From Williamsia soli (GTDB taxonomy: Bacteria; Actinomycetota; Actinomycetes; Mycobacteriales; Mycobacteriaceae), in assembly GCF_017377795.1 (NCBI RefSeq), contig NZ_JAFRDR010000004.1, positions 248,001 through 312,000 on the forward strand: a stretch of 64,000 bases of DNA. Reading direction: 5' to 3'. Numbering within the stretch: the stretch's first letter is position 1; each line of letters begins with the position of its first letter. Below the pieces are notes generated by a model that saw only the letters and a program-made list of their open reading frames with translations, was not told the origin of the DNA and searched no databases. Shown here piece by piece: positions 9,810-27,184 of this stretch. The translations under genes were made by a program, and so were the position numbers.

Positions 9810-10796
9810 ATGCAATCTAACACCATGCGGGCAGTGGTCCTGGATGCCCCCGGTGGCCCCGACGCACTCCAGATCCGAGACCTGCCCATCCCCACACCGG
9901 CAGATGGCTGGGTCCTGATCAAGGTCAGAGCCTTCGGCCTCAACCGCTCCGAACTGCATACCCGTCTCGGGTTGGCCCAAGGTGTCACGCTGCCCCGGGT
10001 TCTGGGTATCGAGGCCGTGGGTGAAGTCGTCAAATGTCCTGACGGCCGATACCGGAAGGGTCAACAGGTCGCCGCGATGATGGGCGGGATGGGCCGGACA
10101 TTCGATGGCGGCTATGCCGAATACACGTGTGTGCCCGTGGCCCAGATCATTGCGTTTCGCAGCGATCTCGAGTGGCGCATCCTCGGCGCTGTTCCAGAAA
10201 TGGTCCAGACCGCGTACGGCTCCCTGACCGTGGGACTCGATGCCCAGCCAGGGCAGACGCTGCTCGTCCGTGGTGGTACGTCGGCAGTCGGGATGGCTGC
10301 CGCGATTCTCGCCAAACGGATTGGGATGACAGTCATCTCCACCACCAGAAATCCGAACCGAGTCGAATCGCTGCTCGAGATCGGCGTGGACCATGTGGTC
10401 CTCGACGACGGTGACGTGGCTTCAGCCGTCCGCGGCATCGTCCCGGAGGGAGTCGACAGCGCGCTCGAACTGGTGGGTACCCCGACGTTGCCCGATACCC
10501 TTCGGGCGGTGCGTGTCAAGGGCATCTGTTGCTTCACCGGGATGTTGTCCAATGTCTGGACGGTGCCGGACTTTTATCCGATCGAGTACCTGCCCAAGGG
10601 CGTTCGCCTCTCGGCCTACAGTGGTGACGCCTCTGATCTGCCGGCCGAGGTGCTACAGGGTTTTCTTGACGACGTGGCCGCCGGTCGGGCCATGGTTCCG
10701 CTGTATCGATCCTTCTCGCTGGATGAGATCCGGGAGGCGCACGCGATCATGGAATCCGGCGACGCAGTCGGAAAGATGGTTGTCACTATTCGTTGA
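9810..10796 (+). CDS. MDR-superfamily zinc-independent alcohol dehydrogenase / quinone oxidoreductase-like protein
   Basis: 328 residues, NADPH:quinone reductase (QOR) branch of the medium-chain dehydrogenases. GroES-like N-terminal half (MRAVVLDAPGGPDALQIRD) and a Rossmann domain with VRGGTSAVGMAAAILAK. The zinc-ligand Cys/His pattern of true alcohol dehydrogenases is absent. The ATG at 9810 follows GAAAGGA; a longer upstream reading overlaps the thiolase and is not needed. It ends the operon and overlaps the 3' end of the convergent beta-glucosidase gene by 11 bases. It may reduce an enoyl or quinone intermediate; the substrate is unknown. Confidence 0.85.
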   Translation: MQSNTMRAVVLDAPGGPDALQIRDLPIPTPADGWVLIKVRAFGLNRSELHTRLGLAQGVTLPRVLGIEAVGEVVKCPDGRYRKGQQVAAMMGGMGRTFDGGYAEYTCVPVAQIIAFRSDLEWRILGAVPEMVQTAYGSLTVGLDAQPGQTLLVRGGTSAVGMAAAILAKRIGMTVISTTRNPNRVESLLEIGVDHVVLDDGDVASAVRGIVPEGVDSALELVGTPTLPDTLRAVRVKGICCFTGMLSNVWTVPDFYPIEYLPKGVRLSAYSGDASDLPAEVLQGFLDDVAAGRAMVPLYRSFSLDEIREAHAIMESGDAVGKMVVTIR

Positions 10797-13023
10797 TTTC
10801 GTCGATGACGCGCTGCATCCGCTCGAGTTCGTCGGCGCTCATGCCGAACGCAGCCATCCGGCCGATGGGTATCGACGCCATCATCTGGGCCATATCGATG
10901 CCCGCAGCCTCGCCGTTGCCATCCGCCTTCATCCCGCCAGGAGCATGAGCGGCCAGATACTCGAGCAGAGATGCGGCATTCGGATCGGCCATGAGCTCAG
11001 CGAAAGTCGTGTCCATCGTGAGCGGGATCTCGACGGGGTCGCCGGCGATGGTGACTCGTGCGGTCGCGCGGATATCGCGACTCGACGCGCCTGCACTGAC
11101 GTCGTATTCTCCGTTTTCGACGAGCCACTGGTGAGTGCGTACATCCCAGTACGCCATCGCATCACGTTCGATCGATACCGTGATCCTCTCACTGGAGCCC
11201 GGCTGTAGATCCACGATCGCAAACTCCGTGAGTTCGCGCACCGGGCGCGCGACGGTCGATTCGCTTTTGGACGTGTAGATCTGAACCACCTCGCGGCCGG
11301 TACGGTCGCCGGTATTGGTGATGGTCAGACGCACACGAACTTGAGAGGCATCGACGTCGACGATGAGGTCCGAGTAGTCGAAGCTCGTGTAGGACAAGCC
11401 GTGACCGAACGGGTATGTCACGTCGATGCCGCGTGCCTCGTACCATCGATAGCCGACGAATTGTCCTTCGCCGTAGAGGATGTGGGAGTTCTCGCCCGGA
11501 AAATTGAGATAGGCCGGTGTGTCCTGTAGTCGAGCCGGCACCGTCTCGGTCAACCTGCCGGAGGGGTTGACCCTGCCGTACAGGACGTCTGCCAAGGCTC
11601 CACCGGCGGCTTGGCCGAGCAGTGCGCCGTCGAGGATCGCGGGTGCCAGCCGCGCGACCGGTTCGAGGCGTACGACACCGCCATGGGCGAGCACGGCGAC
11701 CGTATTGGGCTGGCGTGCGACTACCTCGGCGAGCAGAGCGAGCTGCTCGGTCGGCAGCTCGATGTTCTCGCGGTCGAAACCTTCGGACTCCTGGGTAGCC
11801 GCGAGACCCAGGAAGACCACCGCTACATCTGCCGCGGCAGCTGTCTCGACGGCTGCCGGGCGAAGGAAGTCGTCATCGGAACCGTCGGTGGTGAACCCGC
11901 GCGCAAACGACACTGTGTCAGGGCTTGCCAGAGCCCGGATCTCTTCCAGGGGTGAATCAACCTCGGTTGGGTTGACATGCGAGCTGCCGCCGCCCTGATA
12001 GCGCGGAGTCGCAGCGAAGTCACCGATCACTGCGATGTGGTGTCCCCTGCTGAGCGGAAGCACTGCAGCGTCGTTCTTGAGAAGAACAATGCATCGACCG
12101 GCGACCTCGCGAGCCAGTGCGTGATGGGCGGTTCGGTCGGGGTCTGCGACCGTGACATTTCGGCCCTGGAGCGCCCTTCCCCCGAGTCGGGCCATGGCGG
12201 CAGCTGCTCGATCGACGGGTGCCGAATCGAGCGTGCCGGCTTCCGCTGCGGCCACCACAGCCATATCGGGGACGTCTGTGCCGCCGGGCATCTGGAGGTC
12301 GAGCCCGGCCGCGACCGCGGCGACGCGGTCTCTGACAGCGCCCCAATCGCTCACAACGACTCCGTCGAATCCCCACTCGTCGCGAAGAACGGTCGTCAGC
12401 AACCAATGGTTCTCGGCTGCGTAGACCCCGTTGATGCGGTTGTATGAGCACATCACGGTCCACGGATCCGAGGTTCGGACGATGTGTTCGAAGGCCCGGA
12501 GATAGATTTCGCGCAGGGTCCGCTCGTCGACATCAGAACTCGCCCGCATCCGGTCGTGCTCGGCATTGTTGGCGGCGAAATGCTTCAGCGACGCACCGGT
12601 GCCGGTGCTTTGCAGACCTTCGACCCAGGCACTTCCCAAGACTCCCGTCAGGACGGGGTCCTCCGAGTAGTACTCGAAATTCCTCCCGCAGCGTGGGTCG
12701 CGCTTGATGTTGATCCCCGGGCCGAGAAGCACGTCGACGCCAAGGTTCCGGGCCTCGAGTCCGAGCGCCTCACCAACCTTACGAACAAGCTCGCGATCCC
12801 AGCTTTGTCCCAGCCCCACTGCCGGCGGGAAACATGTGGCTGGCTCGCTGCCGGCCAATCCGAGGTGGTCTGTCGCCCCCGTCTGCCTGCGAACGCCGTG
12901 CGGTCCGTCGGTGAGCACCATCGACGGCACATCACCGATCGCTTTGGTGGTCCAGAAATCGGCGCCGCTCCCGAGCGCAGCCTTCTGCCGTATCGGCAGA
13001 CCAGCGTTCGACGAAGTGCTCAT
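10786..13023 (-). CDS. Glycoside hydrolase family 3 beta-glucosidase
   Basis: 745-residue GH3 enzyme that releases terminal beta-D-glucose. The (beta/alpha)8 domain carries KHFAANN (about 147-153) and the nucleophile Asp226 in VVVSDWGA. The second alpha/beta domain follows, then a fibronectin-III-like domain (about 560-660), then about 80 extra residues of Ala/Met-rich helical sequence. No signal peptide is visible, so it should be cytoplasmic and act on an imported glycoside. The ATG at 13023 has GGGGAG upstream. It is divergent from a TetR gene (13115), the likely regulator. It could deglycosylate an aryl glucoside for the pathway at 14.4-27.2 kb; that link is an inference from proximity. 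Confidence 0.93.
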   Translation of the reverse strand: MSTSSNAGLPIRQKAALGSGADFWTTKAIGDVPSMVLTDGPHGVRRQTGATDHLGLAGSEPATCFPPAVGLGQSWDRELVRKVGEALGLEARNLGVDVLLGPGINIKRDPRCGRNFEYYSEDPVLTGVLGSAWVEGLQSTGTGASLKHFAANNAEHDRMRASSDVDERTLREIYLRAFEHIVRTSDPWTVMCSYNRINGVYAAENHWLLTTVLRDEWGFDGVVVSDWGAVRDRVAAVAAGLDLQMPGGTDVPDMAVVAAAEAGTLDSAPVDRAAAAMARLGGRALQGRNVTVADPDRTAHHALAREVAGRCIVLLKNDAAVLPLSRGHHIAVIGDFAATPRYQGGGSSHVNPTEVDSPLEEIRALASPDTVSFARGFTTDGSDDDFLRPAAVETAAAADVAVVFLGLAATQESEGFDRENIELPTEQLALLAEVVARQPNTVAVLAHGGVVRLEPVARLAPAILDGALLGQAAGGALADVLYGRVNPSGRLTETVPARLQDTPAYLNFPGENSHILYGEGQFVGYRWYEARGIDVTYPFGHGLSYTSFDYSDLIVDVDASQVRVRLTITNTGDRTGREVVQIYTSKSESTVARPVRELTEFAIVDLQPGSSERITVSIERDAMAYWDVRTHQWLVENGEYDVSAGASSRDIRATARVTIAGDPVEIPLTMDTTFAELMADPNAASLLEYLAAHAPGGMKADGNGEAAGIDMAQMMASIPIGRMAAFGMSADELERMQRVIDEINE

Positions 13024-13114
13024 GTGCGCTCCCCGAGGTAGGTGGCAGGTGTGGTCTTCCCCTCAAAACAGTACGCCATTCGGTTTTCGGCGACATCGGC
13101 GTTAGGGTCGACAC

Positions 13115-13729
13115 ATGGCTGAGCGAGGCGCGTACACGAAAGGCGTTGCCAAGCGAGAAGAGATCGTCAATGCGGCACTGGCGGTCGTGGCCCGCGTCGG
13201 TTACAGCCGTACGACGATCCGCGAGGTGGCCAGCGCTGTTGGTCTGAGTCAGGCCGGCCTACTGCATTATTTCGGTAGCAAGGAGCAACTCTTCGTCGAG
13301 ATCCTGAGCCGGCGCGACGAGGTGGATCGCCGTGCGTTCAGCGGCAGGAACGAAGCCGACGATCCGGCGGCTGATGCTGCAGAATCGACCGTCAGGCTGG
13401 TTCGGCACAACGCCGACGTCCCGGGACTCGTGCAGTTGTACTCCCGGTTTTCCTCGGAAGCTGCCGAACCAGACCATGCGGCGCACGACTACTTTCGCGA
13501 CCGTTACCTAGAAACCCGAACACTGCTGGAAGACAGCATCGGCCGCATGCGTGAGGCAGGTCGCCTCCGCAGCGAGCTCAGCACCGAGCAGCTTGCCGTG
13601 ATCATGGTGGCCTTGATCGACGGACTGCAGATGCAGTGGATGTACGACCCTGCTGTGGACATGGCCGACCACGTTGCTCACCTGTGGTCGCTGATCACGT
13701 CACCGGCAGATCCGGACGGCCCGAACTGA
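13115..13729 (+). CDS. TetR-family transcriptional regulator
   Basis: 204 residues. The N-terminal HTH contains TTIREVASAVGLSQAGLLHY then FGSKEQLF; the C-terminal ligand domain is helical and unassigned. The ATG has no clear ribosome site, but TAGGGT (13103-13108) stands seven bases upstream of it, so the transcript may be leaderless. It is divergent from the GH3 beta-glucosidase across 91 bases, and that gene is the most likely target. The isochorismatase-like gene begins 69 bases after it. Confidence 0.9.
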   Translation: MAERGAYTKGVAKREEIVNAALAVVARVGYSRTTIREVASAVGLSQAGLLHYFGSKEQLFVEILSRRDEVDRRAFSGRNEADDPAADAAESTVRLVRHNADVPGLVQLYSRFSSEAAEPDHAAHDYFRDRYLETRTLLEDSIGRMREAGRLRSELSTEQLAVIMVALIDGLQMQWMYDPAVDMADHVAHLWSLITSPADPDGPN

Positions 13730-13798: not shown

Positions 13799-14404
13799 AT
13801 GAGCGACCTGAATGTGAACCTCGCCAGCATTGCGTTGGTGCTGGTCGACCTTCAAAATGACAACGTCCACCCCGACGGTGCCTATGCATCCTTCGGCGCC
13901 GCCGACCACGCCAAGGAGCAGAACTTGCTGGAACATGTGGGCGATTTGCTCGCGTGGGCGCGGAGCAAGTCGTTGCCTGTCATTCACAACCACATCGTCT
14001 CACTGCCGGGCAGGACATTTGGTGGTTCGAATGCCCCGATCTTCAGGATGATCGGTCCCGATTCGTTGCGGCAGGGATCGTGGGGCGCTCAGTCGCTTGA
14101 AGGTCTCGAGGCACTCGACGACGAACCCGTGTTACAGCGAAACAGGATGAGTTGCTTCAACGGAACGATGCTTGACGTCCTGCTCCGCAACCTGGGCGTC
14201 ACTGATGTGATCGTTGCTGGTGTGTGGACCAACATGGCCGTCGAACACACCGTTCGAGACGCTGCTGACCACGGGTACCGCGCGATCCTCGCGACGGACG
14301 CCACCTCCAGCCTGAGTGCTGAATGGCAGACCGCGGCTGAGAGTTTCGCGCTGACGAACATCGCCGAGATGGCTACCACGTCGGAGATCATCCACGGCGC
14401 GTAG
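13799..14404 (+). CDS. Isochorismatase-fold hydrolase-like protein lacking the catalytic Cys
   Basis: 201 residues of the isochorismatase/cysteine-hydrolase superfamily. The first Asp of the triad is present in ALVLVDLQND. The region that normally reads Lys-x-Arg-x-Ser-Ala-Phe is LQRNRMSCFNGT, so the Lys is not conserved. The usual Cys in GVxTNxCVExT is Ala here (GVWTNMAVEHT). True isochorismatases such as EntB and PhzD also lack this Cys and hydrolyse a vinyl ether rather than an amide, so the protein may act like them or on another non-amide substrate. AGGGAGA lies in front of the ATG. It may be co-transcribed with the TetR gene. Confidence 0.82.
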   Translation: MSDLNVNLASIALVLVDLQNDNVHPDGAYASFGAADHAKEQNLLEHVGDLLAWARSKSLPVIHNHIVSLPGRTFGGSNAPIFRMIGPDSLRQGSWGAQSLEGLEALDDEPVLQRNRMSCFNGTMLDVLLRNLGVTDVIVAGVWTNMAVEHTVRDAADHGYRAILATDATSSLSAEWQTAAESFALTNIAEMATTSEIIHGA

Positions 14405-14424: not shown

Positions 14425-15252
14425 TCAGCGGCTCATGAATTCGCGGATGCTTCTTGCGACACCGGTCGGGTCGAGAACGTGTGCAAAGTGACTCTGTCCG
14501 GGTAACACAACCTCGGCCACATCGGGAAGAGTTGATTTCAAGTACTCTGACGCACCGATTAGATGTGCTGGGCTCACCTCGCCGACCAGGAGGAGGCTGC
14601 GCACCGGCAGTTCGGCGAACTCCGCCAACACCGATGTGGTCGCGTCGATCTCGGCAAGTTCACGCGTCCACGTCGGTGTCAGGTCGAGGAAGCCCGCCCA
14701 GAGCGGTGTTGCTGCAAGGCCGTCGGTCTCCTCTTTGCTGATGCGTAGAAAGTTCTCGGCTGCGATACGCATTGCACCGTCGTAATCGCGGATATCGATT
14801 GCCTCGGCGTAGTCGGCGAGATGATCGCCCGCTACGGGACCGTCGACAGGGAGCGGTGGTTCGTACATCACCAAGGAAGAGATTTCGGCACCCAGACGGA
14901 CTGTCTCAAGGGTGCATATCGCGCCGAAGGAATGGCCGACGAGAACCGGTGGGGCGCCCGTATCCCGCTCTGCGACGGCAAGAACGGCCGTGATGTCCGC
15001 CGCTTCCGTACGCAGTTCGTACCGCTCAGCGTCGCCACTGAGCCCCCGACCTCGTCGATCGACGAGGTACACCGAGTGATCGGCTGCCAGATCGGCACCC
15101 ACCTGGAGCCACTGTTCGCCGGTCGAGATGCTTCCGTGCACGATCACCACCGGCGGTCCGCTGCCCAGTCTGCGATAACCGATCAGCGTTCCGTCGGCGG
15201 ATTGAACTGTGTCGGTTGTGATCTCGGATGTCGTATCCGTTACCTCGGTCAT
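14425..15252 (-). CDS. Alpha/beta hydrolase
   Basis: 275 residues. Oxyanion-hole strand VVIVHGS, nucleophile Ser108 in VGHSFGA, late catalytic His in GQSHFAHVLDP. AAAGGAAC precedes the ATG. It lies 54 bases after the aldehyde dehydrogenase on the same strand and is likely the third gene of the alcohol DH / aldehyde DH operon. An esterase acting on an ester of the aromatic alcohol or acid would fit, but the substrate cannot be read from the sequence. Confidence 0.88.
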   Translation of the reverse strand: MTEVTDTTSEITTDTVQSADGTLIGYRRLGSGPPVVIVHGSISTGEQWLQVGADLAADHSVYLVDRRGRGLSGDAERYELRTEAADITAVLAVAERDTGAPPVLVGHSFGAICTLETVRLGAEISSLVMYEPPLPVDGPVAGDHLADYAEAIDIRDYDGAMRIAAENFLRISKEETDGLAATPLWAGFLDLTPTWTRELAEIDATTSVLAEFAELPVRSLLLVGEVSPAHLIGASEYLKSTLPDVAEVVLPGQSHFAHVLDPTGVARSIREFMSR

Positions 15253-15306: not shown

Positions 15307-16752
15307 CTATTTAAGGATCCGGAGGCTGTGCTCCTCGACGTATTCGCTCATGCCCGCGGTTCCGAATTCCCGCCCGATCCCGCTTTGCTTGATACCGCCG
15401 AACGGCATCCGCAGATCGAGGGAATCGAAGGAGTGGGTGTTGACGAACGTCGATCCGGCCTCGATGCGACGAGCGACCTCGAGCCCTCGGTCGGTATCGG
15501 TGGTCCACACCGATGATCCCAAGCCGTACTCGGAGTCGTTGGCCCAATCGATCGCCTGATCGAGATTGTCGTAGGCGATGAGCGGCACTATCGGCCCGAA
15601 CTGCTCACATGTGCTGATGGCTGAGTCGTTGTCGGCATCCCGGATCACATGTGGCATCACGTAATAGCCGTCGGACGCCGAGTCGAGCTTTTTGCCGAGC
15701 TGCACGGTCTTTGCCGAGGTGTTCTTGGTGGCTTCGATAAGTGCTGTGACGCTGTCGTATTGGGTTTTGTTGTTCAGGGGGCCGAAGCTGGCTGCTTCGT
15801 CGAGTCCGTGGCCCACCGCATAGGAGTCGACCCGTTCGCAGAATGCGTCGGCGAATGCGGCGTAGCGGGAGCGTGGGACGTAGATGCGTTTGACGGCAAA
15901 GCAGATTTGACCGGTTCGGGTGTAGACGCCCTTGAGCATGCGGTCGAGGGCGGCATCGATGTCGACGTCGTCGAGTACAACGGCGGGATCGTTGCCGCCC
16001 AACTCCAGAGTGATGTTCTTGATCGTGCCCGCTGCCGACTCCATGACCTTGCGGGCGGTGGCCACGCCCCCGGTGAATCCGACCTTGCGGACCAACGGAT
16101 GCGAGGTCAACGCTGCGCCGACGTCGGTGTGGCCGTGGACGACATTGACGACTCCGGCGGGAAGATGACGGGACATGCGCTCGAGGGCGATGGTCAGGGC
16201 GGCCGGCGCAAACGGAGAGGGTTTGATGACGATGGTGTTGCCGGTGGCCAGTGCCGGAGCGAGCTTCATCATGGTCAGTACGACGGGCATGTTCCACGGC
16301 ACAACCGCGGCCACCACGCCGCGGGGCACTCGCTCGATACTGATGAAGCTTTGCTCGTCGTCGTACTGGACGGGCTCGAAGAAGCCTTCGATGAGGCTCG
16401 CCGTGTGCTGTAGGACGCCGGTGCCGAGCCCGAAGTCCGTCTGTGCTTCCCAGAGCATGCCACCGTGCTCGCGAACCAACTGGGGCGCCAGGTCTTCGGC
16501 GGAGGCTGAGAGGGCATCGGCGGCTTCGAGGAGAAGACGCGCGCGTTCTTCGTGGGGGACGTTTTTCCAAGTCTGGTAAGCCGTGTGTGCTGCTGTGACA
16601 GCGCGGTTCACATCATCGACCGTCCCGACAGCGACCCGGGCGGCCAGTTCTGACAACCGTCCGGGATCTTGGACGTCTGTGTATTGATCCACGGACGTTA
16701 GGGCGCCGTCGATGAGGTGGCCGACTGTGAGGAGTTCACTCGTGGTGGTCAT
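15307..16752 (-). CDS. Aldehyde dehydrogenase (NAD(P)-dependent), likely aryl-aldehyde type
   Basis: 481 residues, standard ALDH fold. VPWNMP cofactor strand, general-base Glu250 in LELGGNDP and nucleophile Cys284 in GQICFAVKR. It follows the XylB-like alcohol dehydrogenase by 41 bases, so the pair should oxidise an alcohol to its carboxylic acid. Ribosome site AGGAACT precedes the ATG. Being divergent from a salicylyl-CoA/gentisate operon under a shared operator, salicylaldehyde or a substituted benzaldehyde is the most attractive substrate. That is an inference. Confidence 0.92.
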   Translation of the reverse strand: MTTTSELLTVGHLIDGALTSVDQYTDVQDPGRLSELAARVAVGTVDDVNRAVTAAHTAYQTWKNVPHEERARLLLEAADALSASAEDLAPQLVREHGGMLWEAQTDFGLGTGVLQHTASLIEGFFEPVQYDDEQSFISIERVPRGVVAAVVPWNMPVVLTMMKLAPALATGNTIVIKPSPFAPAALTIALERMSRHLPAGVVNVVHGHTDVGAALTSHPLVRKVGFTGGVATARKVMESAAGTIKNITLELGGNDPAVVLDDVDIDAALDRMLKGVYTRTGQICFAVKRIYVPRSRYAAFADAFCERVDSYAVGHGLDEAASFGPLNNKTQYDSVTALIEATKNTSAKTVQLGKKLDSASDGYYVMPHVIRDADNDSAISTCEQFGPIVPLIAYDNLDQAIDWANDSEYGLGSSVWTTDTDRGLEVARRIEAGSTFVNTHSFDSLDLRMPFGGIKQSGIGREFGTAGMSEYVEEHSLRILK

Positions 16753-16793: not shown

Positions 16794-17900
16794 TCAGAAG
16801 ACGACAACGGGCTTGATCGTCGAACCGTTTTCGGAGTCCGCGAACGCGGTGTTGATGTCGTCGAGGGTGTAGTTCTCAATCAGCTTGTCGAACGGGAACC
16901 TGCCTTGGCTCCAGAGGTCGACCAGGCGGGGGATGAACTGTTGCGGCACGGAACTGCCCTGGATGATGGTTTTGAACGTCCAGCCCTTGACCAGAGACGC
17001 CCCGATTTCGAAGGTGACCTCGGTGCCGGGAGCTGCTGCACCGACCAGTGCGACGGTGCCGCCGATTCCGAGAGAATCGGCCGCCTGACGTAGCACTGAG
17101 GGAACGGCCGTGGTGTCGATCGCGTAGTCGAGACCCTTTCCGCCCGTGATCTTGGCTATTTCTTCGACGACGTCCCCGGTGCGGCCGTTCACGGTGTGGG
17201 TTGCCCCGATCGTCGAGGCGAGTTCGAGTCGGGAATCGTGGAGATCGATGGCCACGATCGTCGTGCATCCGGCGATCTGGGCGGCCATGATCGCGGCAGA
17301 ACCGACGGCGCCAGTGCCGAAGACCGCAATCGAGCTGCCGGGAGCCGGGCGTAGATCGTTGAGAACTGCCCCGGCACCGGTCTGAAGACCGCATCCCAAC
17401 GGGGCGAGTGTCGCGAGCGGAGCGCTGCGATCAACCTTGATGACGCTGTTCTCGACCACGTTCGCGTAGGTGGCAAAGGCCGACTGACCGAAGAAGTGCG
17501 ACGAGATCGGCCCGCCGGCATCCGATAGCGCGGTGGTTCCGTCGTGCCGGCGGCCTCCGAAGTCTTCGGCGAAGAGATTCTCGCAATAGGCCATCCGACC
17601 GGCGCGGCATTGCACGCACTTGCCGCAGTAAGCGGCAGACAGGACAACATGATCACCGGCTTCGACCGTGTAGACCTCGGACCCGACGGCTTCGACGATG
17701 CCGGCCCCTTCGTGTCCGAGCACTGCGGGCAAAGGTGTGGGGTAGACGCCGTCGCGGACAATTGCGTCGGTGTGACAGACGCCGGTGGCCACGAGCTTGA
17801 CCCTGACCTCGTTCGGATGCAGATCGTCCAGATCGAGGTTCTCGATGGTCAGTGGCTCTCCCGTCTGGCGGGCGACGGCGGCGGTGATGTTTGTTGTCAC
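16794..17900 (-). CDS. Zinc-dependent aryl-alcohol dehydrogenase (XylB-like)
   Basis: 368 residues, NAD-dependent zinc MDR. Catalytic zinc ligands are C42 (GVCHTD) and H63/E64 (GHEGAG); the structural zinc set is C92, C95, C98 and C106 (YCGKCVQC...C). GQSAFATYA, GCGLQTGAGAVLN and KTIIQGSSVPQQFIP are typical of benzyl-alcohol dehydrogenases. A GTG at 17900 (VTTNITA) is the chosen start, matching the family N-terminus; a longer reading to 17990 gives a low-complexity extension. It is the first gene of the ADH-ALDH-hydrolase operon, whose promoter carries the PaaX-type operator at 18006-18024. Confidence 0.9.
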   Translation of the reverse strand: MTTNITAAVARQTGEPLTIENLDLDDLHPNEVRVKLVATGVCHTDAIVRDGVYPTPLPAVLGHEGAGIVEAVGSEVYTVEAGDHVVLSAAYCGKCVQCRAGRMAYCENLFAEDFGGRRHDGTTALSDAGGPISSHFFGQSAFATYANVVENSVIKVDRSAPLATLAPLGCGLQTGAGAVLNDLRPAPGSSIAVFGTGAVGSAAIMAAQIAGCTTIVAIDLHDSRLELASTIGATHTVNGRTGDVVEEIAKITGGKGLDYAIDTTAVPSVLRQAADSLGIGGTVALVGAAAPGTEVTFEIGASLVKGWTFKTIIQGSSVPQQFIPRLVDLWSQGRFPFDKLIENYTLDDINTAFADSENGSTIKPVVVF

Positions 17901-18005: not shown

Positions 18006-18024
18006 TCACTATGTGACATAGTGA
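18006..18024. promoter_or_regulatory. PaaX-type operator in the adh/paaX spacer
   Basis: A 19-base palindrome, perfect apart from its central base (TCACTATGT-G-ACATAGTGA). It contains the core TATGTGACATA, repeated as TATGTCACATA at 18960-18970. It covers the -10 of the leftward promoter and lies 71-89 bases upstream of the regulator start, so it may also serve autoregulation. Binding by the adjacent regulator is inferred. Confidence 0.75.
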
Positions 18025-18934: not shown

Positions 18935-18942
18935 CAGTTTCG

Positions 18943-19024: not shown

Positions 19025-20728
19025 ATGTCACGTACCGATCTGAACCAGCCATCCGACTCCGCAGCGCTCCGAATTGCTTGCATCGGCGGCGGGCCCGGTG
19101 GGCTGTTCACTGCGATAGCGATGGCGCATTCGGTGCCGGCGGCAACTGTTGACGTCTTCGAAAGAAACAGAGAGAGCGACGTATTCGGCTTCGGTGTCGT
19201 ATTCTCCGATGCCACACTCGACCACATCGACACAGTCGACCCGGTGCTGCGGGACACCCTGGCCGATCACGGCCGACGATGGGACACCATCGAGGTGCGC
19301 GCGAAAGGCGAAACGATGGCCGCGGGCGGCAATGGCATGTCCGCGGTCCATCGACGAGTGCTCCTCGGTGCGCTGCGTGAGCGTGCACTCGAATTGGGTG
19401 CGAGACTGCACCACTCGGCGGACGTCACTGTCGATGAGCTCGACGCTCGGGGCGACTTCGACCTCATCGTCGCCGCTGACGGCACCAACTCTGCTGCCCG
19501 TGAGGCATTCATTGACAAGCTCGACCACTCTGTCGAGACGGCCGCCGTCAAGTTCATCTGGTTCGGCACCACGTATCAGTTCGAACGTTTGACCTTCCTA
19601 CACATGGAATCTGAGCACGGAAACTTCGCTGTGCACGCATACCCCATCGGTTCGGACCTCAGCACGTTCATCGTGGAGACCGACGAGCAGACGTGGCGAC
19701 GTGCCGGGCTCGACGGCTTCGACATGTCGTCGCCGCCCGGTGAATCAGATGAGGTGACCAAGCAGTACCTCGAATCGCTGTTCGCCCAGCAAATAGACGG
19801 ACACAAGTTGGTCACCAACAATTCGCGCTGGTCGAACTTCCGTACCCGACGGACGCGCCACTGGCACACCCGGACGGACCGGGGCACACCGGTGGCGTTT
19901 CTAGGAGACGCCATGCACACCGCCCACTTCTCGGTCGGGTCTGGAACAAAGATGGCCATGGAGGACGCCGCAGCTCTTGCTCAGTCAATCGCTGAGCATC
20001 CCTCTGACCTGGAAACAGCTATGGCAGCATTCCAAGACGCGCGGCGTCCGCAAGTCGCGAAAATCCAGAACTCGTCGATTCCGAGTCTGTCCTGGTGGGA
20101 TCACTTCGGTGAGTACTACCGCGGGCTTGAACCCTGGCAGTTCGGGTTTCACTTCTTCAGCCGCGCGATCTCGGCGGCCAAGATGGGAGTCCGTGATCCG
20201 GCGTTCGTGCGATCTGCCCACGAGGCATGGGAGCAGCGGCACGGTGCGAGTCCGCTGGCAACACACCTCACAATAGGAGCTACTGAGTTCGCGACCCGAC
20301 TTCTGGAAGTGATCGACGAGACCGAGGACACCCTGACGCTGGGATCTGCGGGGCAGTCCCTGACCGCCGGCTCAGACTCGGGTCACGGACCGGTCAGGCT
20401 CTATCTCGCGTCGGACACCGAAGGCACGTCGTTGCCGGCAACCGCCACGACCCGACTGGACGAGCTCTGTGGGAGCAAACCGGACGCCGTGGTGGTTCGC
20501 GGCGGAACGCCCCTGTCACGTGTCCTCAGCGCCGAGCGCGTTCGCCTTCGATACGGCATCCCTGTCGTCGTCGTCGACGGCCCGGACTCCGTCCGCGCAC
20601 GCCGCGCGGTCGACGAAAATGATTGCGCTGCAACATTGATTCTGTCCGGACGTGCAGACGCGGTGGCATTCGAGGTCGATGCGGAGTCGCGTGTTCGGAA
20701 TCGCGTACACGCCGAGGTCGCGAAATGA
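19025..20728 (+). CDS. Salicylyl-CoA 5-hydroxylase-like FAD monooxygenase (SdgC/anthraniloyl-CoA monooxygenase family)
   Basis: 567 residues. Expected to hydroxylate salicylyl-CoA para to its hydroxyl, giving gentisyl-CoA. GGGPGG (21-26) binds FAD; VFGFGVVFSDATLDHI, SAVHRRVL and GDAMHTAHFSVGSGTKMAMEDA are hallmarks of the aryl-CoA hydroxylase branch. Known bifunctional relatives carry a C-terminal Old Yellow Enzyme barrel; here only about 160 residues follow (from roughly 400), ending RYGIPVVVVDG...SGRADAVAFEV, which recalls the last strands of that barrel. The start at 19025 is preferred because an in-frame ATG at 18971 lies inside the promoter -10. Its stop overlaps the next gene (ATGA). 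The downstream gentisate genes support the assignment. Confidence 0.85.
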   Translation: MSRTDLNQPSDSAALRIACIGGGPGGLFTAIAMAHSVPAATVDVFERNRESDVFGFGVVFSDATLDHIDTVDPVLRDTLADHGRRWDTIEVRAKGETMAAGGNGMSAVHRRVLLGALRERALELGARLHHSADVTVDELDARGDFDLIVAADGTNSAAREAFIDKLDHSVETAAVKFIWFGTTYQFERLTFLHMESEHGNFAVHAYPIGSDLSTFIVETDEQTWRRAGLDGFDMSSPPGESDEVTKQYLESLFAQQIDGHKLVTNNSRWSNFRTRRTRHWHTRTDRGTPVAFLGDAMHTAHFSVGSGTKMAMEDAAALAQSIAEHPSDLETAMAAFQDARRPQVAKIQNSSIPSLSWWDHFGEYYRGLEPWQFGFHFFSRAISAAKMGVRDPAFVRSAHEAWEQRHGASPLATHLTIGATEFATRLLEVIDETEDTLTLGSAGQSLTAGSDSGHGPVRLYLASDTEGTSLPATATTRLDELCGSKPDAVVVRGGTPLSRVLSAERVRLRYGIPVVVVDGPDSVRARRAVDENDCAATLILSGRADAVAFEVDAESRVRNRVHAEVAK

Positions 20729-22833
20729 CGGTCACCGTAAGAACCCTGACCGAGGGCGATGTTGTCGACTCGGCGGGCAATCTGGACGCGCTGTTTGCGC
20801 CGACGTCGATCGCTGTTGTCGGGGCATCGTCGTCTGCCGGCAAATTGGGATCGGTCATGCTCGCTGCGATCAACCGAGGCAAATCGGGATCTGTCACCTC
20901 GGTGGGCATCAATCCGAAGGGCGAGGGAGACGGGTTTGAAACCTCCCTCGCGGCGGCAACATCTACCCACGGGCGCGCCATCGATCTGGCCGTGATGTGC
21001 ATACCGGCAGTGGCCACCCCCGACGCCATTCGCGAAGCCGCCGACTGTGGAGTGCGGGCAGCGCTCATCTGCTCCGGAGGATTCGCGGAGGCCGGCCCGG
21101 AAGGAAGCCGGCTGCAGGAAGAACTCCGGACAATCGTGGACTCGACAGGTATCCGTCTGCTCGGCCCGAACACCTCCGGATTCTTTCGGCCGGCGATCCT
21201 GTCGGTCAGTTTTGTGCCGACTGTCGAGTACATCAGGCCCGGTCCCGTTGCGGTCGTGGCCGCCAGCGGGGGAATGAACCATGCCCTGTCGTTCCTGCTC
21301 TCGGAGAGTGGAGTCGGCGTGGGCCTGGGGGTAGGGCTGGGCAACAGCGTCGACGTCACGTCCGTTGACGTCCTTCGATATCTGCACCGGGACGAGACCG
21401 TCAGGGCCATTGCGCTGCATGTCGAATCCATCGACGACGGAGAGGCCTTGCTCGCGGCAGTCCGAGACGTGAGTGCCGACAAACCGATCGTGGCGATCGT
21501 GGTCGGAAAAGCTGATGTCTCGGCGTTTTCGGAATCACACACCGGGGCGTTGGCGACGTCGTGGCGTACCACCCGAGCGCTTCTGGCAGAAGCCGGCGCC
21601 GTCGTTGTCGGCAGTGAGCACGAACTCGTCGACGCGCTGGCCGTGCTGAGCCGTACGCGCCTTCCCGCGTTGCAGGACCCGGGGATCGGCCTGGTGACTG
21701 CTCAGGCCGGGCCCGGCCTGATGATCCTCGATGACCTGCTGGCCGGCGGCGTCCGCGTGCCGCCACTGGCCGAACAGACCACGTCGGCACTGGCCGAACT
21801 GCTGCCGCCGATGACATTTCAATCCAATCCAGTCGATACCGGACGTCCGGGCGCAACGTTCGGTCGAGTCTTGGACGTCGCCTCCGCGGACGGTGGTATC
21901 GATGCGCTCGCGGTGTACGCGCTCGCTGAGCCCGACGTGATCGATCTGGCAGCAGTGGTGGGTGAATCCAGCGCCCTCGCTACGGTCCCTGTGGTGCTGG
22001 GCATTGGTGGGCCGTCCCAGGTGACAGCTGCATCAACTGTGCGCGCTGCCGAGCTGGGTGTGCCGGTCCGTTCGAGCCCGACCTCATTGGCTGCGGGGGT
22101 CCGGGCGCTCGTGCAGGATTCGCGGGTGCGCTTCCTACATGGTGTGGACGCAGAGACAGCAGCACCTGTTTTGAGGATCGCGCTCCCGGCCGATGAGGCC
22201 ACCGCGAAGGACGCACTGGACGAGTTGGGGTTCGCGACACCGAAACGACATGTATGTAGCAGCCGGGATGGGGCCCACGCAGCACTGGCGGCCCTGCAGG
22301 CGCCCGTGGCGGTCAAGATCCTTGACGCGGCGGTCCTGCACAAGACGGATATCGGAGGTGTGCATCTCGGTGTCCGCACTGCCGATGATCTCGATCGTGC
22401 CCTCGACGCACTCGACGGCATCGGCGCGGCCGCCTATCTGCTCGAGGAGATGGCGGATTCCGGAGTCGACCTGTTTCTCGGTGTTCGCCGAGATACGGTC
22501 TTTGGGCCGATTGTTGTTGCCGGCGTTGGCGGTACGGCTGCAGAGGCAATTGGCGACGTGACGATCAAGAGTGGGCGCGTCACGCCTACCGGTGCGGCGG
22601 CGATGCTGGAAGAACTGCAATTCGCGCCGGTCTTAGATGGCTGGCGAGGTGGCCCGACACTCGACAGGAAGCAATTCGCCCGGCACGCAGTCACGCTGGC
22701 CCAGTGCCTGCAATCCCATCCGGAAATCCAGGAGATCGAGATCAACCCCTTTCGCTTGACATCGGCCGGGCTGATAGCCCTCGATGCCGTGATCGTGCCG
22801 GCCGCCGAGAACAGTGCAGGAGATCAGACATGA
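20725..22833 (+). CDS. NDP-forming acyl-CoA synthetase (acetyl-CoA synthetase ADP-forming type)
   Basis: 702 residues with alpha and beta parts fused. N-terminal CoA-binding Rossmann domain (PTSIAVVGASSSAGKLGSVM), succinyl-CoA-ligase-like middle with the probable phospho-His in SHTGALATS, and a C-terminal ATP-grasp domain (VAVKILDAAVLHKTDIGGV, EIEINPF). These enzymes reversibly interconvert acyl-CoA + ADP + Pi with acid + ATP + CoA. It lies between the hydroxylase and an AMP-forming ligase, with four-base overlaps on both sides. One idea is that it runs toward ATP and releases gentisate from gentisyl-CoA; another is that it helps make salicylyl-CoA. Direction and substrate are unproven. Confidence 0.87.
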   Translation: MTVTVRTLTEGDVVDSAGNLDALFAPTSIAVVGASSSAGKLGSVMLAAINRGKSGSVTSVGINPKGEGDGFETSLAAATSTHGRAIDLAVMCIPAVATPDAIREAADCGVRAALICSGGFAEAGPEGSRLQEELRTIVDSTGIRLLGPNTSGFFRPAILSVSFVPTVEYIRPGPVAVVAASGGMNHALSFLLSESGVGVGLGVGLGNSVDVTSVDVLRYLHRDETVRAIALHVESIDDGEALLAAVRDVSADKPIVAIVVGKADVSAFSESHTGALATSWRTTRALLAEAGAVVVGSEHELVDALAVLSRTRLPALQDPGIGLVTAQAGPGLMILDDLLAGGVRVPPLAEQTTSALAELLPPMTFQSNPVDTGRPGATFGRVLDVASADGGIDALAVYALAEPDVIDLAAVVGESSALATVPVVLGIGGPSQVTAASTVRAAELGVPVRSSPTSLAAGVRALVQDSRVRFLHGVDAETAAPVLRIALPADEATAKDALDELGFATPKRHVCSSRDGAHAALAALQAPVAVKILDAAVLHKTDIGGVHLGVRTADDLDRALDALDGIGAAAYLLEEMADSGVDLFLGVRRDTVFGPIVVAGVGGTAAEAIGDVTIKSGRVTPTGAAAMLEELQFAPVLDGWRGGPTLDRKQFARHAVTLAQCLQSHPEIQEIEINPFRLTSAGLIALDAVIVPAAENSAGDQT

Positions 22834-24548
22834 GTACTCGAACCCCGATGTCGATTGAGGGCGTTGTGCCGTGGCCCGACGAGTACGCGTCGAGATATCG
22901 AAGCGCGGGCTATTGGCAGGGAAAGGCTTTGGGCGCCTACATCTTCGAGAAGGTTGACCAACACCCTGACACCGAGGCTCTCGTCGACGGCTCCGTCAGA
23001 CTCACGTACCGACAGCTGTGGGACAGAGCCGCATCGTGCGGCCAGGGTTTGTTGGATCTCGGCATACGGCCCGGTGAGAGGATTGTGCTCCAACTACCCA
23101 ACTGCTGGGAGTTCGTTGCCTTGACGCTCGGATGCTTCAGGGTCGGCGTCATACCCGTGATGGCCCTGCCTGCGCATCGCAGGCATGAACTGACCCATCT
23201 CTCGGCATTGTCCGAGGCGGTCGCGATCGTCGTCGCAGACGTCGACCGGGATACAGATCTTCGAATAGTCGCACAGCAAGTCGCGGTCGAAGTGCCGACC
23301 GTTCACTCGGTCATGGTGCACGGTGAACTGTCGGTGGAACAGCCTGACGGTGGCGGGGTGCCGGAGCACAGTCTTGCGGCCGTCACTGACACTCAGCGCC
23401 ACTTCGTCGACGACGAGTACGAACCGCGGGGATCGGACGTGGCGTGTCTGCTGCTTTCCGGGGGTACCACCGGCTTGCCGAAGCTCATCGTCCGGACCCA
23501 CGACGACTATGCCTACAACGTCATCCGATGTAACGCTGTGAGCGGCATCGACTCCGACACTGTCTATCTGGGAACGCTCCCTAGCAGTCACAACTTTCCC
23601 CTGGCCTGTCCGGGAATCCTCGGAGCCCTATTCGCGGGTGGTCGCGCCGTCATGCTGCCGTCGCCCGCCGCCGACCGAGCACTGCGAACGATCGAAGACG
23701 AGTCGGTCACCATTGCCGCAGTGGTGCCCGCTGTGGCTCAGTCGTGGATCGAACACCAGCGTGAGCACCACACCCTGTGCGGACGGAGTCTGCGTGTTCT
23801 TCAGGTGGGCGGGTCGCGGATGCCCGATGAACTCGCCGCTCGGGTGGAACCGGTTCTCGGAGCACGTCTTCAACAGGTCTTCGGCATGGCCGAGGGGCTG
23901 ATCAACATGACCCACCTCGACGATGACCTCGAAGTCATCACCAATACGCAGGGGCGTCCGGTCAGCGAAGCGGACGAGATCATGGTCGTCGATGATCAGG
24001 GCGCTCCGGTGCCTGACGGTGTGCCCGGAGCGCTGCTGACCCGTGGCCCGTACACGCCTCGCGGATACTTCCGGGCACCCGAACACAACGCTCGATCGTT
24101 CACGCCCGACGGGTGGTATGGGAGCGGCGACATCGTGGTGCAACGACCCGACGGGAACATGGTCGTCGCCGGGCGTGACAAAGACATGATCAACCGTGGC
24201 GGCGAAAAGATCTCCGCAGAGGAAGTCGAGAACTTCGCGTATCAGGTCGAGGGTGTCGAGATGGCGGCTGCCGTAGCGATGCCCGATCCAAAATTGGGTG
24301 AGCGGCTGTGCCTCTATGTGTCGGTCGCAGAGGACCGAGAGGTGGCCCTCGTCGACGTCGTCAACGTGATGAACGCTGCGGGGGTCGCGAGGTTCAAGAT
24401 CCCCGAGCGTCTGGTGATCGTGGACCGGATGCCGACGACCAAGGTCGGCAAGATCGACAAGAAGGCAATTCGAGAGGACATCCGCGAACGGCTCGAGTCA
24501 GCCGTGACGCGGTCGAGTTCAGCTTCTGTGGAGGAGGATTCACAATGA
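22830..24548 (+). CDS. Salicylate/2,3-dihydroxybenzoate-type AMP ligase
   Basis: 572-residue adenylating enzyme of the EntE/DhbE/MbtA group. A3 loop LLLSGGTTGLPK (about 207-218); HNFPLACPG with H254-N255, the pair that in DhbE/EntE recognises the aryl acid and its 2-hydroxyl; WYGSGDIV; and VAGRDKDMINRGGEKIS with the A10 Lys in VGKIDKK. Within a gentisate operon it should form salicyl-AMP and probably salicylyl-CoA, like SdgA of Streptomyces sp. WA46. No aryl-carrier protein or siderophore gene is nearby, which argues against a siderophore role. Start overlaps the previous stop (ATGA), with AGGAGAT upstream. Confidence 0.88.
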   Translation: MSTRTPMSIEGVVPWPDEYASRYRSAGYWQGKALGAYIFEKVDQHPDTEALVDGSVRLTYRQLWDRAASCGQGLLDLGIRPGERIVLQLPNCWEFVALTLGCFRVGVIPVMALPAHRRHELTHLSALSEAVAIVVADVDRDTDLRIVAQQVAVEVPTVHSVMVHGELSVEQPDGGGVPEHSLAAVTDTQRHFVDDEYEPRGSDVACLLLSGGTTGLPKLIVRTHDDYAYNVIRCNAVSGIDSDTVYLGTLPSSHNFPLACPGILGALFAGGRAVMLPSPAADRALRTIEDESVTIAAVVPAVAQSWIEHQREHHTLCGRSLRVLQVGGSRMPDELAARVEPVLGARLQQVFGMAEGLINMTHLDDDLEVITNTQGRPVSEADEIMVVDDQGAPVPDGVPGALLTRGPYTPRGYFRAPEHNARSFTPDGWYGSGDIVVQRPDGNMVVAGRDKDMINRGGEKISAEEVENFAYQVEGVEMAAAVAMPDPKLGERLCLYVSVAEDREVALVDVVNVMNAAGVARFKIPERLVIVDRMPTTKVGKIDKKAIREDIRERLESAVTRSSSASVEEDSQ

Positions 24549-25621
24549 CCGACATCGAAACCGGTATCGAAGACGAGCAACTGGACAAGCTGTATCGGGA
24601 CTTCGAGACCGAGAACTTGATGCCCTTGTGGACACAACTGGGTGACCTGATGCCCATGGTGCCCACGTCCAAAGCTGTCCCCTTCATCTGGAAGTGGTCG
24701 ACTCTGTATCCATTGGCGAAACGGGCAGGCGATCTGGTTCCGGTCGGTAGGGGAGGCGAGCGGCGCGCGATCGCGCTCGCCAACCCCGGGCTCGGTGGAG
24801 TGCCCTACGTGTCACCCACGCTGTGGGCGGCGATCCAGTATCTCGGACCGAAGGAAGTCGCTCCCGAACACCGGCACGCACAGAATGCTTTTCGGTTCGT
24901 TGTCGAGGGCGAGGGTGTGTGGACAGTCGTGAACGGCGATCCGGTGGCGATGCGGCGCGGCGACTTCCTGCTGACCCCGGGATGGCATTTTCACGGCCAC
25001 CACAACGAAACAGACCAACCGATGGCATGGATCGACGGATTGGACATTCCCTTCGTCCACTACACCGACACGGGTTTTTTCGAATTCGGATCAGAGAACG
25101 TCACCGACGAGTCGACCCCGGACATCTCACGATCGGAAAGGCTTTGGGCCCATCCCGGACTGCGCCCCTTGGTCGGGCTCGATGCGAAGACGAGTTCTCC
25201 CATCGCCGCCTATCGGTGGGTGCATACCGACGCTGCGCTGACCGAACAACTCGAACTCGAGGATGAAGGCTACGCGGCCACCACCGAACCGGGGCACGCC
25301 GCGGTTCGGTACACGAACCCGACCACCGGCGGAGACGTGATGCCGACTATGCGGGCAGAGTTTCACCGGCTTCGCGACGGTGCCCGCACTCGTCCGAGGA
25401 GGGACGTCGGATCCACCGTCTACCAGGTGTTCGAAGGGCGTGGCCGGTTTGTGCTCGACGGTCGCAGTACATCAGTGGAGACCGGTGACATGGTCGTCGT
25501 GCCGTCGTGGACGGAGTGGTCAATCGAAGCAGAGAGCCAATTCGACCTTTTTGCATTCTCTGACGCCCCGATCGTCGAGAAGTTGCATTTCGCAAGAACA
25601 TTGATAACCGAAGGAGCCTGA
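24545..25621 (+). CDS. Gentisate 1,2-dioxygenase
   Basis: 358-residue bicupin, the usual size for the family. Opens gentisate between the carboxylated and the adjacent hydroxylated carbon, giving maleylpyruvate. The N-terminal cupin carries the Fe(II) ligands: H109 and H111 in PEHRHAQNAFRF and a His in PGWHFHGHHN (148-153). The second cupin (about 270-350) has VYQVFEGRGRFVLDG but no metal set. GAGGAGG precedes the ATG, which overlaps the ligase stop. It anchors the assignment of the whole operon. Confidence 0.93.
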   Translation: MTDIETGIEDEQLDKLYRDFETENLMPLWTQLGDLMPMVPTSKAVPFIWKWSTLYPLAKRAGDLVPVGRGGERRAIALANPGLGGVPYVSPTLWAAIQYLGPKEVAPEHRHAQNAFRFVVEGEGVWTVVNGDPVAMRRGDFLLTPGWHFHGHHNETDQPMAWIDGLDIPFVHYTDTGFFEFGSENVTDESTPDISRSERLWAHPGLRPLVGLDAKTSSPIAAYRWVHTDAALTEQLELEDEGYAATTEPGHAAVRYTNPTTGGDVMPTMRAEFHRLRDGARTRPRRDVGSTVYQVFEGRGRFVLDGRSTSVETGDMVVVPSWTEWSIEAESQFDLFAFSDAPIVEKLHFARTLITEGA

Positions 25622-25626
25622 CACTC

Positions 25627-26451
25627 ATGAAGCTCGCAACCCTGCGCCGCGGTGACACGACGGTGGCCGTCCGCGTGAACGACAATGCGGCGACCGTCAT
25701 CGATGGCTACATCGATCTTTCCGAACTCCTGGCCAATCCGGATTGGCGTGCCGTCGCTGACAGCGCCAACGGTGAGGCGATCGACCTGAACGGCGCGGAC
25801 TATGCTCCCGTTGTTCCGCGGCCCGGCAAGATCATCTGCGTCGGCCTGAACTACGCCAACCACATCAAAGAGATGGGTCGGGAACTACCCGAGTTCCCGA
25901 CGTTGTTCGCGAAGTTCCGCGAGGCCCTCACCGGCCCCTACGACGACGTGGTCGTTCCCGCATACGCCGCGGCTGCACTCGATTGGGAAGGTGAGCTGGC
26001 TTTCGTGATCGGCAAGACCGCCTACCAGGTCTCGGAGTCCGACGCGGAGGACTACATCGCCGGCTACTCGGTGATGAACGACTACACGATGCGCGACTAC
26101 CAGTATCGGACGCTGCAGTGGGACCAGGGCAAGACCTTCGAGGCCAGCAGCGGTTTCGGTCCGGTACTCACCACCACGGATGCATACACGTTCGGCGGCA
26201 AGCTCGAGACCAGGCTCGACGGCGAGCTCATGCAGACAACCACGACTGATGACCTCGTCTTCACGCCGGCCAAACTCGTCGAGTACATCTCGCACATCGT
26301 CACGCTGCAAGTGGGAGACGTCGTCATCACCGGGACGCCCGGAGGCGTGGGCCACGCGCGCAAGCCGGAGGTGTACATCCAGGACGGGCAGACCGTCGAG
26401 GTCACAATCGAGGGCCTCGGTTCGGTGCGCAACAAGACGATCGTGAAATAG
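25627..26451 (+). CDS. Fumarylacetoacetate hydrolase-family protein, probable fumarylpyruvate hydrolase
   Basis: 274 residues. Metal-dependent C-C bond hydrolase expected to split fumarylpyruvate into fumarate and pyruvate. Family motifs are VGLNYANHIKEMG, WEGELAFVIGK (metal-binding Glu residues), MNDYTMRDYQ and GDVVITGTPGGVG. The substrate is assigned from the neighbouring gentisate dioxygenase and maleylpyruvate isomerase. GAAGGAG lies before the ATG and the gap to the previous gene is five bases. Confidence 0.92.
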   Translation: MKLATLRRGDTTVAVRVNDNAATVIDGYIDLSELLANPDWRAVADSANGEAIDLNGADYAPVVPRPGKIICVGLNYANHIKEMGRELPEFPTLFAKFREALTGPYDDVVVPAYAAAALDWEGELAFVIGKTAYQVSESDAEDYIAGYSVMNDYTMRDYQYRTLQWDQGKTFEASSGFGPVLTTTDAYTFGGKLETRLDGELMQTTTTDDLVFTPAKLVEYISHIVTLQVGDVVITGTPGGVGHARKPEVYIQDGQTVEVTIEGLGSVRNKTIVK

Positions 26452-26455
26452 AGAG

Positions 26456-27184
26456 TTGTCAGACAACAGCTTTCACACTCTCTCGCTGGACGAGCGGCTG
26501 CTCATGGCCCGGCGTGGAACAGCATACTTCGCACAGAAGCTCGCCGAGCTGACCGATGCGGAACTGAGTGGACCGACGTTGCTGGCCGGATGGTCTCGTC
26601 GTCATCTTGTCGCGCACGTCGGCTACAACGCTGCAGCGCTGTGTCGCCTCATGGATTGGGCGGCCACGGGCCAGGAGACCCCGATGTACGAGTCGACCGA
26701 GCAGCGCGGTCGAGAGATCGAAGAGGGCGCCACACTCAGTGCCGCCGCACTACGGAACCTGTTCGACCACACCGTGGCCAGGCTCGACCAGAAGTGGCGC
26801 CACCTCCCGGAGGCGGCCTGGTCGGCTGAGGTCAGAACCGCTCAGGGCCGGGTGGTGCCGGCATCGGAGACCTGCTGGCTCCGGACCCGGGAAGTCTGGA
26901 TCCATGCAGTCGATCTCGACAACGGCGCTCGCTTTGGAGATCTCCCGGATCCTGTTCTCGAGTCTCTTCTCGACGACATCGTCGGGATGTGGCGGAAGAA
27001 AGAGCTGGCGCTCGGGCTGGTCCTGCAGGTCGTCGGGCGCCCAATGGTTGCAGTACACGATGATTCGTCACCGCAGACGACTGTCACCGGTGATCTTGCC
27101 GGCGTTGTCAGGTGGGCCGCGGGTCGCGGCGACATCGGGATCGACGTCGTGGGAGCGGTCACCGAACCGCCACGGTGGCTGTAG
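26456..27184 (+). CDS. Mycothiol-dependent maleylpyruvate isomerase family protein
   Basis: 242 residues with a DinB-like metal-binding helical bundle. LLAGWSRRHLVAHVGYNAAAL supplies the first metal His; REVWIHAVDLDNG supplies the Glu-x3-His pair. In actinobacteria this family isomerises maleylpyruvate to fumarylpyruvate with mycothiol as cofactor, linking the dioxygenase and the hydrolase upstream. A TTG at 26456, four bases after the preceding stop, gives the family-length N-terminus. It ends the operon, convergent with the MarR gene. Confidence 0.9.
   Translation: MSDNSFHTLSLDERLLMARRGTAYFAQKLAELTDAELSGPTLLAGWSRRHLVAHVGYNAAALCRLMDWAATGQETPMYESTEQRGREIEEGATLSAAALRNLFDHTVARLDQKWRHLPEAAWSAEVRTAQGRVVPASETCWLRTREVWIHAVDLDNGARFGDLPDPVLESLLDDIVGMWRKKELALGLVLQVVGRPMVAVHDDSSPQTTVTGDLAGVVRWAAGRGDIGIDVVGAVTEPPRWL

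Follow-up and report, generated by a model that had tools for sequence, protein, structure and literature searches.

The question raised by this locus is whether the genes clustered at 10786..27184 of the analysed window form one catabolic route, and with which substrate such a route would begin. The window is a 64-kb stretch of the 6.07-Mb genome of Williamsia soli (G000:C20:248001-312000), and its nearest named relatives at the locus are records of Rhodococcus, Nocardia and Gordonia. The first-pass annotation had proposed a complete pathway from a salicin-type aryl glucoside through salicyl alcohol, salicylaldehyde, salicylate and salicylyl-coenzyme A (CoA) to gentisate and central metabolism, under a shared PaaX-type operator. 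Family scans of the translated open reading frames (ORFs) found all eight enzyme genes of this proposal where it had placed them, each with an open frame, together with additional genes for an ADP-forming acyl-CoA ligase, an alpha/beta hydrolase, an isochorismatase-like protein and a TetR-family regulator. The steps from the alcohol to ring cleavage are likely to constitute a two-operon regulon for the use of salicyl alcohol, salicylaldehyde and salicylate, whereas the glycosidase that was to open the pathway is judged a separate unit and a neighbour of the regulon.

The lower part of the route would be encoded on the plus strand by an operon that follows the gene of a PaaX-type regulator (18095..18934). 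In order, its genes encode an SdgC-like flavoprotein proposed as a salicylyl-CoA 5-hydroxylase (19025..20728, in an ORF opening at 18971), an SdgB-like ADP-forming acyl-CoA ligase of the ATP-grasp type (20725..22833; Succ_CoA_lig and ATP-grasp_5 domains), an SdgA-like, EntE-like aryl-AMP ligase (22830..24548; AMP-binding, 258 bits), a gentisate 1,2-dioxygenase (24545..25621), a fumarylpyruvate hydrolase of the FAH family (25627..26451; FAA_hydrolase, 210.6 bits) and a maleylpyruvate isomerase of the mycothiol type (26456..27184; MDMPI_N, with TIGR03083 at 122.9 bits against a cutoff of 50). AMP ligase, CoA ligase, hydroxylase and gentisate dioxygenase are thus found in one block of the sdg type. 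The likely starts of the two ligases and of the dioxygenase overlap the preceding stops as ATGA, an arrangement resembling that of a translationally coupled operon. The names sdgA, sdgB and sdgC belong to the salicylate pathway of Streptomyces sp. WA46 reportedly described by Ishiyama et al. in 2004. The CoA ligase contains an SHTG sequence, presumably its phospho-His motif. In the WA46-type route, salicylate passes through salicylyl-AMP/CoA and gentisyl-CoA to gentisate, and the ADP-forming ligase fits the CoA-synthetase step of that pathway as given in the accessible part of the source (PMC4600096).

The recurrence of this block was followed in 80 sdgC loci found with SdgC (1.49 Mb in total, with 31 stretches under 21 kb in length). 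The hydroxylase is accompanied by the CoA ligase in 69 of these loci, by the AMP ligase in 71 and by gentisate dioxygenase in 43, and the association of hydroxylase and ligases spans Rhodococcus, Arthrobacter and Streptomyces. An operon of this type, containing an additional hypothetical gene, is found on plasmid pDF01 of Rhodococcus sp. p52, a strain reported to degrade dibenzofuran via salicylate, and lies beside genes for a ring-hydroxylating dioxygenase, a VOC protein and an alpha/beta hydrolase. In the whole SdgC model (mean predicted local distance difference test score 71.9), coverage by VIA-align and Foldseek fell mainly on residues 12-392, and the C-terminal domain was folded alone. 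Elsewhere in the same genome (L044:3287-11020, on G000:C25), two large acetophenone carboxylase/caprolactamase-like subunits are immediately followed by a further pair of EntE-like ligase and SdgC-like hydroxylase, which may represent another aryl-CoA hydroxylation route.

The upper part would be encoded on the minus strand by three genes that point away from paaX: an XylB/AreB-like aryl-alcohol dehydrogenase (ADH; 16794..17900; Pfam ADH_N and ADH_zinc_N), an aldehyde dehydrogenase (ALDH; 15307..16752; Pfam Aldedh, 454 bits) and, as the last gene, the alpha/beta hydrolase (14425..15252; Pfam Abhydrolase_6). The ADH frame is open to 17990, the GTG at 17900 being the likelier start. In the proposed mechanism, this operon would convert salicyl alcohol to salicylaldehyde and then to salicylate. 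The sdg operon would activate salicylate to salicylyl-CoA, which would be hydroxylated at C5; gentisate would be released and cleaved to pyruvate and fumarate. The PaaX-type protein would repress both operons by binding two TGTNACA-like boxes in each promoter, one upstream of the -35 element and one over the -10 region, and would depart once a CoA thioester, most likely salicylyl-CoA, builds up.

The two operons are connected by a shared dual-box promoter, which lies at 18012..18050 on the minus strand for the ADH-ALDH-hydrolase operon and at 18930..18968 on the plus strand for the sdg operon. The box TATGTSACATA occurs exactly at only two sites in the window, 18010-18020 (TATGTGACATA) and 18960-18970 (TATGTCACATA), which precede ADH/PaaX and SdgC, respectively, and it was absent from 100 shuffles. 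A single-box search with two mismatches gave 4 matches against 3.4 expected, which is not above chance, and because this search was uninformative the exact form and a composite form were adopted. The composite is the 39-bp pattern common to both promoters, TGTNNCA-N6-TTGACW-N13-TGNNACA; since it was written from promoters of loci already inspected, which are its training set, its genome-wide counts gauge exclusiveness and not discovery. Among 11 genomes picked by hand, it had 11 exact matches in six, each at an sdgC promoter or a divergent ADH/transporter promoter, and a backward-read control had none. In a class set of 345 genomes, it occurred twice in G000, both times in this cluster, and in none of the 344 others, whose sdgC content was not counted. 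A relaxed form, drawn up after inspection of loci L117, L173, L058, L062, L065 and L076, marked 36 sites in 21 of the 80 sdgC loci, of which 20 precede sdgC and 16 the divergent operon (in one case, that of L070, the site precedes a transporter gene); the reversed control again gave none. In the sister genome G008, ADH and ALDH lie at the opposite end of the cluster and keep their own copy of the promoter, some 12 kb away from the sdgC promoter. A promoter pair that is shared, exclusive and retained in the rearranged G008 provides strong sequence evidence that ADH-ALDH and the sdg operon are co-regulated.

The position of paaX between the two promoters, together with their exclusiveness, points to its product as the binding protein. 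All three PaaX domains were detected above their gathering scores (PF07848, PF20803 and PF08223 at 55.8, 44 and 76.9 bits), as in the PaaX of phenylacetate catabolism. However, the protein falls below the cutoff of the phenylacetate PaaX model TIGR02277 (171.9 of 264.55 bits), and it would recognise a box of its own, TATGTSACATA. The phenylacetate PaaX responds to a CoA-thioester inducer, and the inducer proposed here is presumed by analogy with it. A PaaX homolog is encoded in all 21 loci with relaxed promoter sites and also in 45 of the 59 without them, other regulators not having been sought systematically.

Several observations weigh against this reading of the promoter and of the lower operon. 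Of the 80 loci, 59 lack any relaxed site although 66 have a PaaX homolog; genomes G379, G388 and G358 carry SdgC and have no exact composite match; and no 11-base box matching in at least 9 positions was found before SdgC in L047 and L050 or before PaaX in L056. The SdgC protein reaches 380.6 of 1078 bits with NF006101, the model of the bifunctional salicylyl-CoA 5-hydroxylase/oxidoreductase, and matches just positions 1-392 of the 768 in this profile, and the AMP ligase and the gentisate dioxygenase also remain below the cutoffs of their named models (TIGR02275, 560.1 of 723.55 bits; TIGR02272, 284.2 of 442.1 bits), to which the PaaX score above must be added. Because several of these proteins fall below equivalog cutoffs, the lower-pathway assignments rest on context, and it is family resemblance only that suggests salicylyl-CoA as the substrate of the hydroxylase.

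The substrates of the upper operon were approached through the relatives of its two dehydrogenases. Among solved structures, the ADH is best matched by 5tnx, at 425 bits, and by the benzyl alcohol dehydrogenase 1f8f, at 380 bits; the alignment with the latter is full-length and keeps the metal-ligand segments, a likeness from which the substrate is predicted only. An ADH more than 50% identical occurs in 13 of the 80 sdgC loci; all 13 stretches also contain an ALDH, which is of the NahF type in nine and of the window type in four (L045, L046, L047 and L056, 79-81% identical and next to the same ADH). Both promoters are present in 11 of these 13 loci. In Arthrobacter locus L117, the ALDH matches salicylaldehyde dehydrogenase NahF (4jz6) at 681 bits, and its next solved matches are another salicylaldehyde dehydrogenase (512 bits) and vanillin dehydrogenase (511 bits); a NahF-type ALDH beside the same ADH and the same promoter pair indicates salicyl alcohol and salicylaldehyde. 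According to the accessible part of PMC9959693, Pseudomonas putida CSV86 has benzyl alcohol and benzaldehyde dehydrogenases that accept salicyl alcohol and salicylaldehyde as well. Based on the NahF-type partners, the ADH relatives and the substrate range of the CSV86 enzymes, salicyl alcohol and salicylaldehyde are the probable substrates of the upper operon.

The pairing is also observed at the level of genomes. Among the 401 genomes of the family set, searched with E cutoffs of 1e-110 for ADH, 1e-90 for SdgC and 1e-150 for the glycosidase discussed below, the ADH was found in 10 and SdgC in 16; it accompanies full-length SdgC (more than 60% identical) in five of eight genomes, compared with five of the 393 others, where both searches are taken as the same draw and the genomes are not independent. 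Pseudarthrobacter phenanthrenivorans Sphe3 carries the same gene set on its plasmid pASPHE301, accompanied by genes for an aromatic-acid transporter and for a short ADH. Since the arrangement recurs in several genera, it is not peculiar to this genome. In an ADH tree, which played no part in the main argument, the window ADH clusters with those of Rhodococcus loci L046 and L047 (97/99); the program excluded 4 of 27 rows for insufficient length, and some branchings are unresolved.

The ADH and ALDH could instead belong to the regulon and serve the oxidation of benzyl or 3-hydroxybenzyl alcohols, that of alcohols which the hydrolase would free from salicylate esters, or just the removal of toxic aldehydes, which we regard as unlikely. 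The nearest named solved relative of the ADH is a benzyl alcohol dehydrogenase, and the hydrolase gene comes next to ALDH in the same direction. The window ALDH is not of the NahF type: it shares only some 34% identity with the L117 protein, being a distant family member for which 4jz6 was not among the best 60 solved relatives, and this is the weakest link of the substrate assignment. Further points against the proposed salicyl alcohol regulon are the absence of a transporter gene from the window ADH operon, unlike in the relatives read; the 67 of 80 sdgC loci without such an ADH in the stretch, many stretches being short as noted above; the lack of promoter sites in L067 and L075, two of the 13 ADH-bearing loci; and genome G152, where some 6 kb separate an ADH ortholog of 76% identity from FAH and gentisate dioxygenase-like pieces and no sdgC accompanies it. 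However, a NahF-type salicylaldehyde dehydrogenase partners the ADH in nine of the 13 ADH-bearing sdgC loci, and the hydrolase is present in just three of the 13, both of which speak against these other substrates.

The glucoside step is where the first-pass annotation did not hold. Its candidate (10786..13023, minus strand) does have the N- and C-terminal domains of GH3, and its N-terminus, read by eye, has no apparent signal peptide, as an intracellular enzyme cleaving salicin or another aryl glucoside and feeding salicyl alcohol to the pathway would require. In both genomes with full-length SdgC among the nine of the genus, W. soli and G008, a GH3 gene lies beside the cluster in differing arrangements, that of G008 being an ortholog 0.5 kb from ADH. 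Within the family set, such a GH3 accompanies full-length SdgC in six of eight genomes and is present in 139 of the remaining 393 (p about 0.03, the genomes not being independent). However, in the 500 bp upstream of the gene no dual box was found and the best single box matched 7 of 11 bases, and the same region in G008 and G003 likewise has neither a dual box nor a good single box, so that the shared operator extends to ADH-ALDH and the sdg operon and stops short of GH3. The enzyme is also common, with matches in 145 of the 401 family genomes; it lies on a contig other than that of sdg in the draft genomes G242, G341, G379 and G388, G003 has it without sdg or ADH, and homologs (36-44%) were found in only two of the 80 sdgC loci. 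Eight NCBIfam models matched it and none reached its cutoff, the best being exo-alpha-1,6-L-arabinopyranosidase (830 of 1300 bits), and no glucoside transporter was found among the ORFs scanned around it. GH3 was therefore rejected as the first step on the evidence of promoter, distribution and linkage, a rejection that leaves the G008 adjacency and the weak co-occurrence unexplained, and a salicin-fed route appears improbable. A TetR-family gene, perhaps encoding the own regulator of GH3, is divergent from it (13115..13729, plus strand; family scan). TetR homologs (36-61%) adjoin GH3 in five of 17 further loci (L144-L160), each represented by about 5 kb of sequence, a length at which a more distant TetR would be missed; none lies near GH3 in L138 and L139. 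On the other side of GH3, positions 5239-10796 hold a beta-oxidation-like set of acyl-CoA dehydrogenase, CoA transferase, SDR, thiolase and MDR dehydrogenase, whose relatives in G008 (89-96% identical for the first four, 56% for the MDR) also adjoin the sdg cluster.

That the lower operon hydroxylates another aryl-CoA, the whole set serving a different acid, is very improbable: the hydroxylase and ligase scores below named models and the second EntE-like/SdgC-like pair of this genome, by carboxylase/caprolactamase-like genes, would allow it, but the operon also encodes gentisate dioxygenase, hydrolase and isomerase, Streptomyces and a plasmid bearing ring-dioxygenase genes have the hydroxylase-ligase-ligase block too, and relatives carry the NahF-type ALDH.

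Comparison of the proposed salicyl alcohol regulon with known systems showed that each of its halves has a counterpart. Streptomyces loci share a similar hydroxylase-ligase-ligase block, with hydroxylases 49-53% identical (WA46 itself was outside the comparison), whereas no alcohol or aldehyde arm is described in the accessible part of PMC4600096, and the arm in the window shares the promoter. In Rhodococcus sp. TFB, whose nag genes are salicylate-induced, four of the nine peptides listed for the gentisate dioxygenase are identical in the window dioxygenase, only one of the seven NagK peptides is identical in the FAH hydrolase, and the isomerase is likewise of the mycothiol type; unlike the window, TFB has an IclR-like putative regulator and a separately controlled salicylaldehyde dehydrogenase activity, and a CoA-dependent route was not detected there (PMC3937715, consulted in part). 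The closest precedent for the upper half is the salicyl alcohol operon of Pseudomonas GM16 (PMI19_01133-01136), which is upregulated on salicyl alcohol and encodes an aryl-alcohol dehydrogenase and an oxidoreductase annotated as acyl-CoA reductase, beside salicylate-consuming genes; in that published Populus case, salicin is cleaved by a different bacterium, Rahnella (PMC9959693 and PMC11708038, accessible parts). The window ADH and ALDH share their promoter pattern with the predicted salicylate-consuming genes and may be co-regulated with them. However, the lower half in GM16 is a salicylate hydroxylase leading to catechol, as far as those parts describe it, in contrast to the CoA thioester, gentisate and PaaX-type regulator of this actinobacterial locus; among the genes of the cluster, gentisate genes were found in place of salicylate hydroxylase and catechol dioxygenase.

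The first-pass annotation considered the joining of an alcohol/glucoside part to the sdg logic under the same operator new. No open-access report was found that combines a salicyl-alcohol operon and a CoA-dependent salicylate route under one PaaX-type two-promoter switch (subscription papers mostly fell outside the search), nor one linking salicyl alcohol, salicylaldehyde, gentisate and dehydrogenase together. The accessible parts of PMC11603403, PMC4988695 and PMC13215587 contain nothing on such a joining; that of PMC10815724 refers to the pASPHE301 gene for gentisate dioxygenase and not to the alcohol arm, and for an Arthrobacter degrading naphthalene to gentisate the salicylaldehyde dehydrogenase gene was not identified (PMC6193132, in part). 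On the other hand, the arrangement recurs in Rhodococcus and Arthrobacter loci, and Pseudomonas provides the precedent described above.

Between GH3 and ALDH, the TetR gene is followed by those of the isochorismatase-like protein and the alpha/beta hydrolase. Copies of the hydrolase (59-67%) occur near PaaX in eight of the 80 loci, and the Ser of its GHS and a His are conserved in five sequences; there is no close solved relative, the best being 3r0v at 93 bits. A role as a salicylate-ester hydrolase is weakly suggested, and that of a methyl salicylate esterase would be a guess. In Rhodococcus, another alpha/beta hydrolase (L045:2851-3891), containing FVLVHGACHAGWSW, lies between a transporter and ADH, and relatives of it (44-59%) are encoded close to sdg clusters, those of Streptomyces among others; to us, it is reminiscent of plant methyl salicylate esterases. 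The isochorismatase-like protein (13799..14404, plus strand; family scan) has orthologs more than 50% identical at varying positions near sdg clusters in six of the 80 loci, and no promoter box was found in a scan upstream of its gene. The catalytic residue of the isochorismatase family is a cysteine, and the position expected for it holds methionine or alanine in an alignment of three sequences, in which the two relatives are 76-77% identical to the window protein; an amidase role was not favoured on this account.

These observations are compatible with a regulon dedicated to salicyl alcohol and salicylaldehyde in actinobacteria, in which two lineages would have placed different ALDHs, NahF-type and distant, beside the same ADH and joined them to a CoA-dependent gentisate route under one 39-bp, two-box, PaaX-sensed promoter, with interchangeable ester hydrolase modules; we consider the chances of this broader proposal evenly balanced. 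The correction of the glucoside claim matters for experiments, which would otherwise be aimed at the wrong enzyme. If the regulon is as proposed, its 39-bp promoter would offer a very specific signature for finding such clusters. Its growth substrates are probably of plant origin, and leaf and root actinobacteria would then possess a one-switch route that carries plant salicyl alcohol, salicylaldehyde and salicylate, the last a plant defence hormone, into central metabolism.

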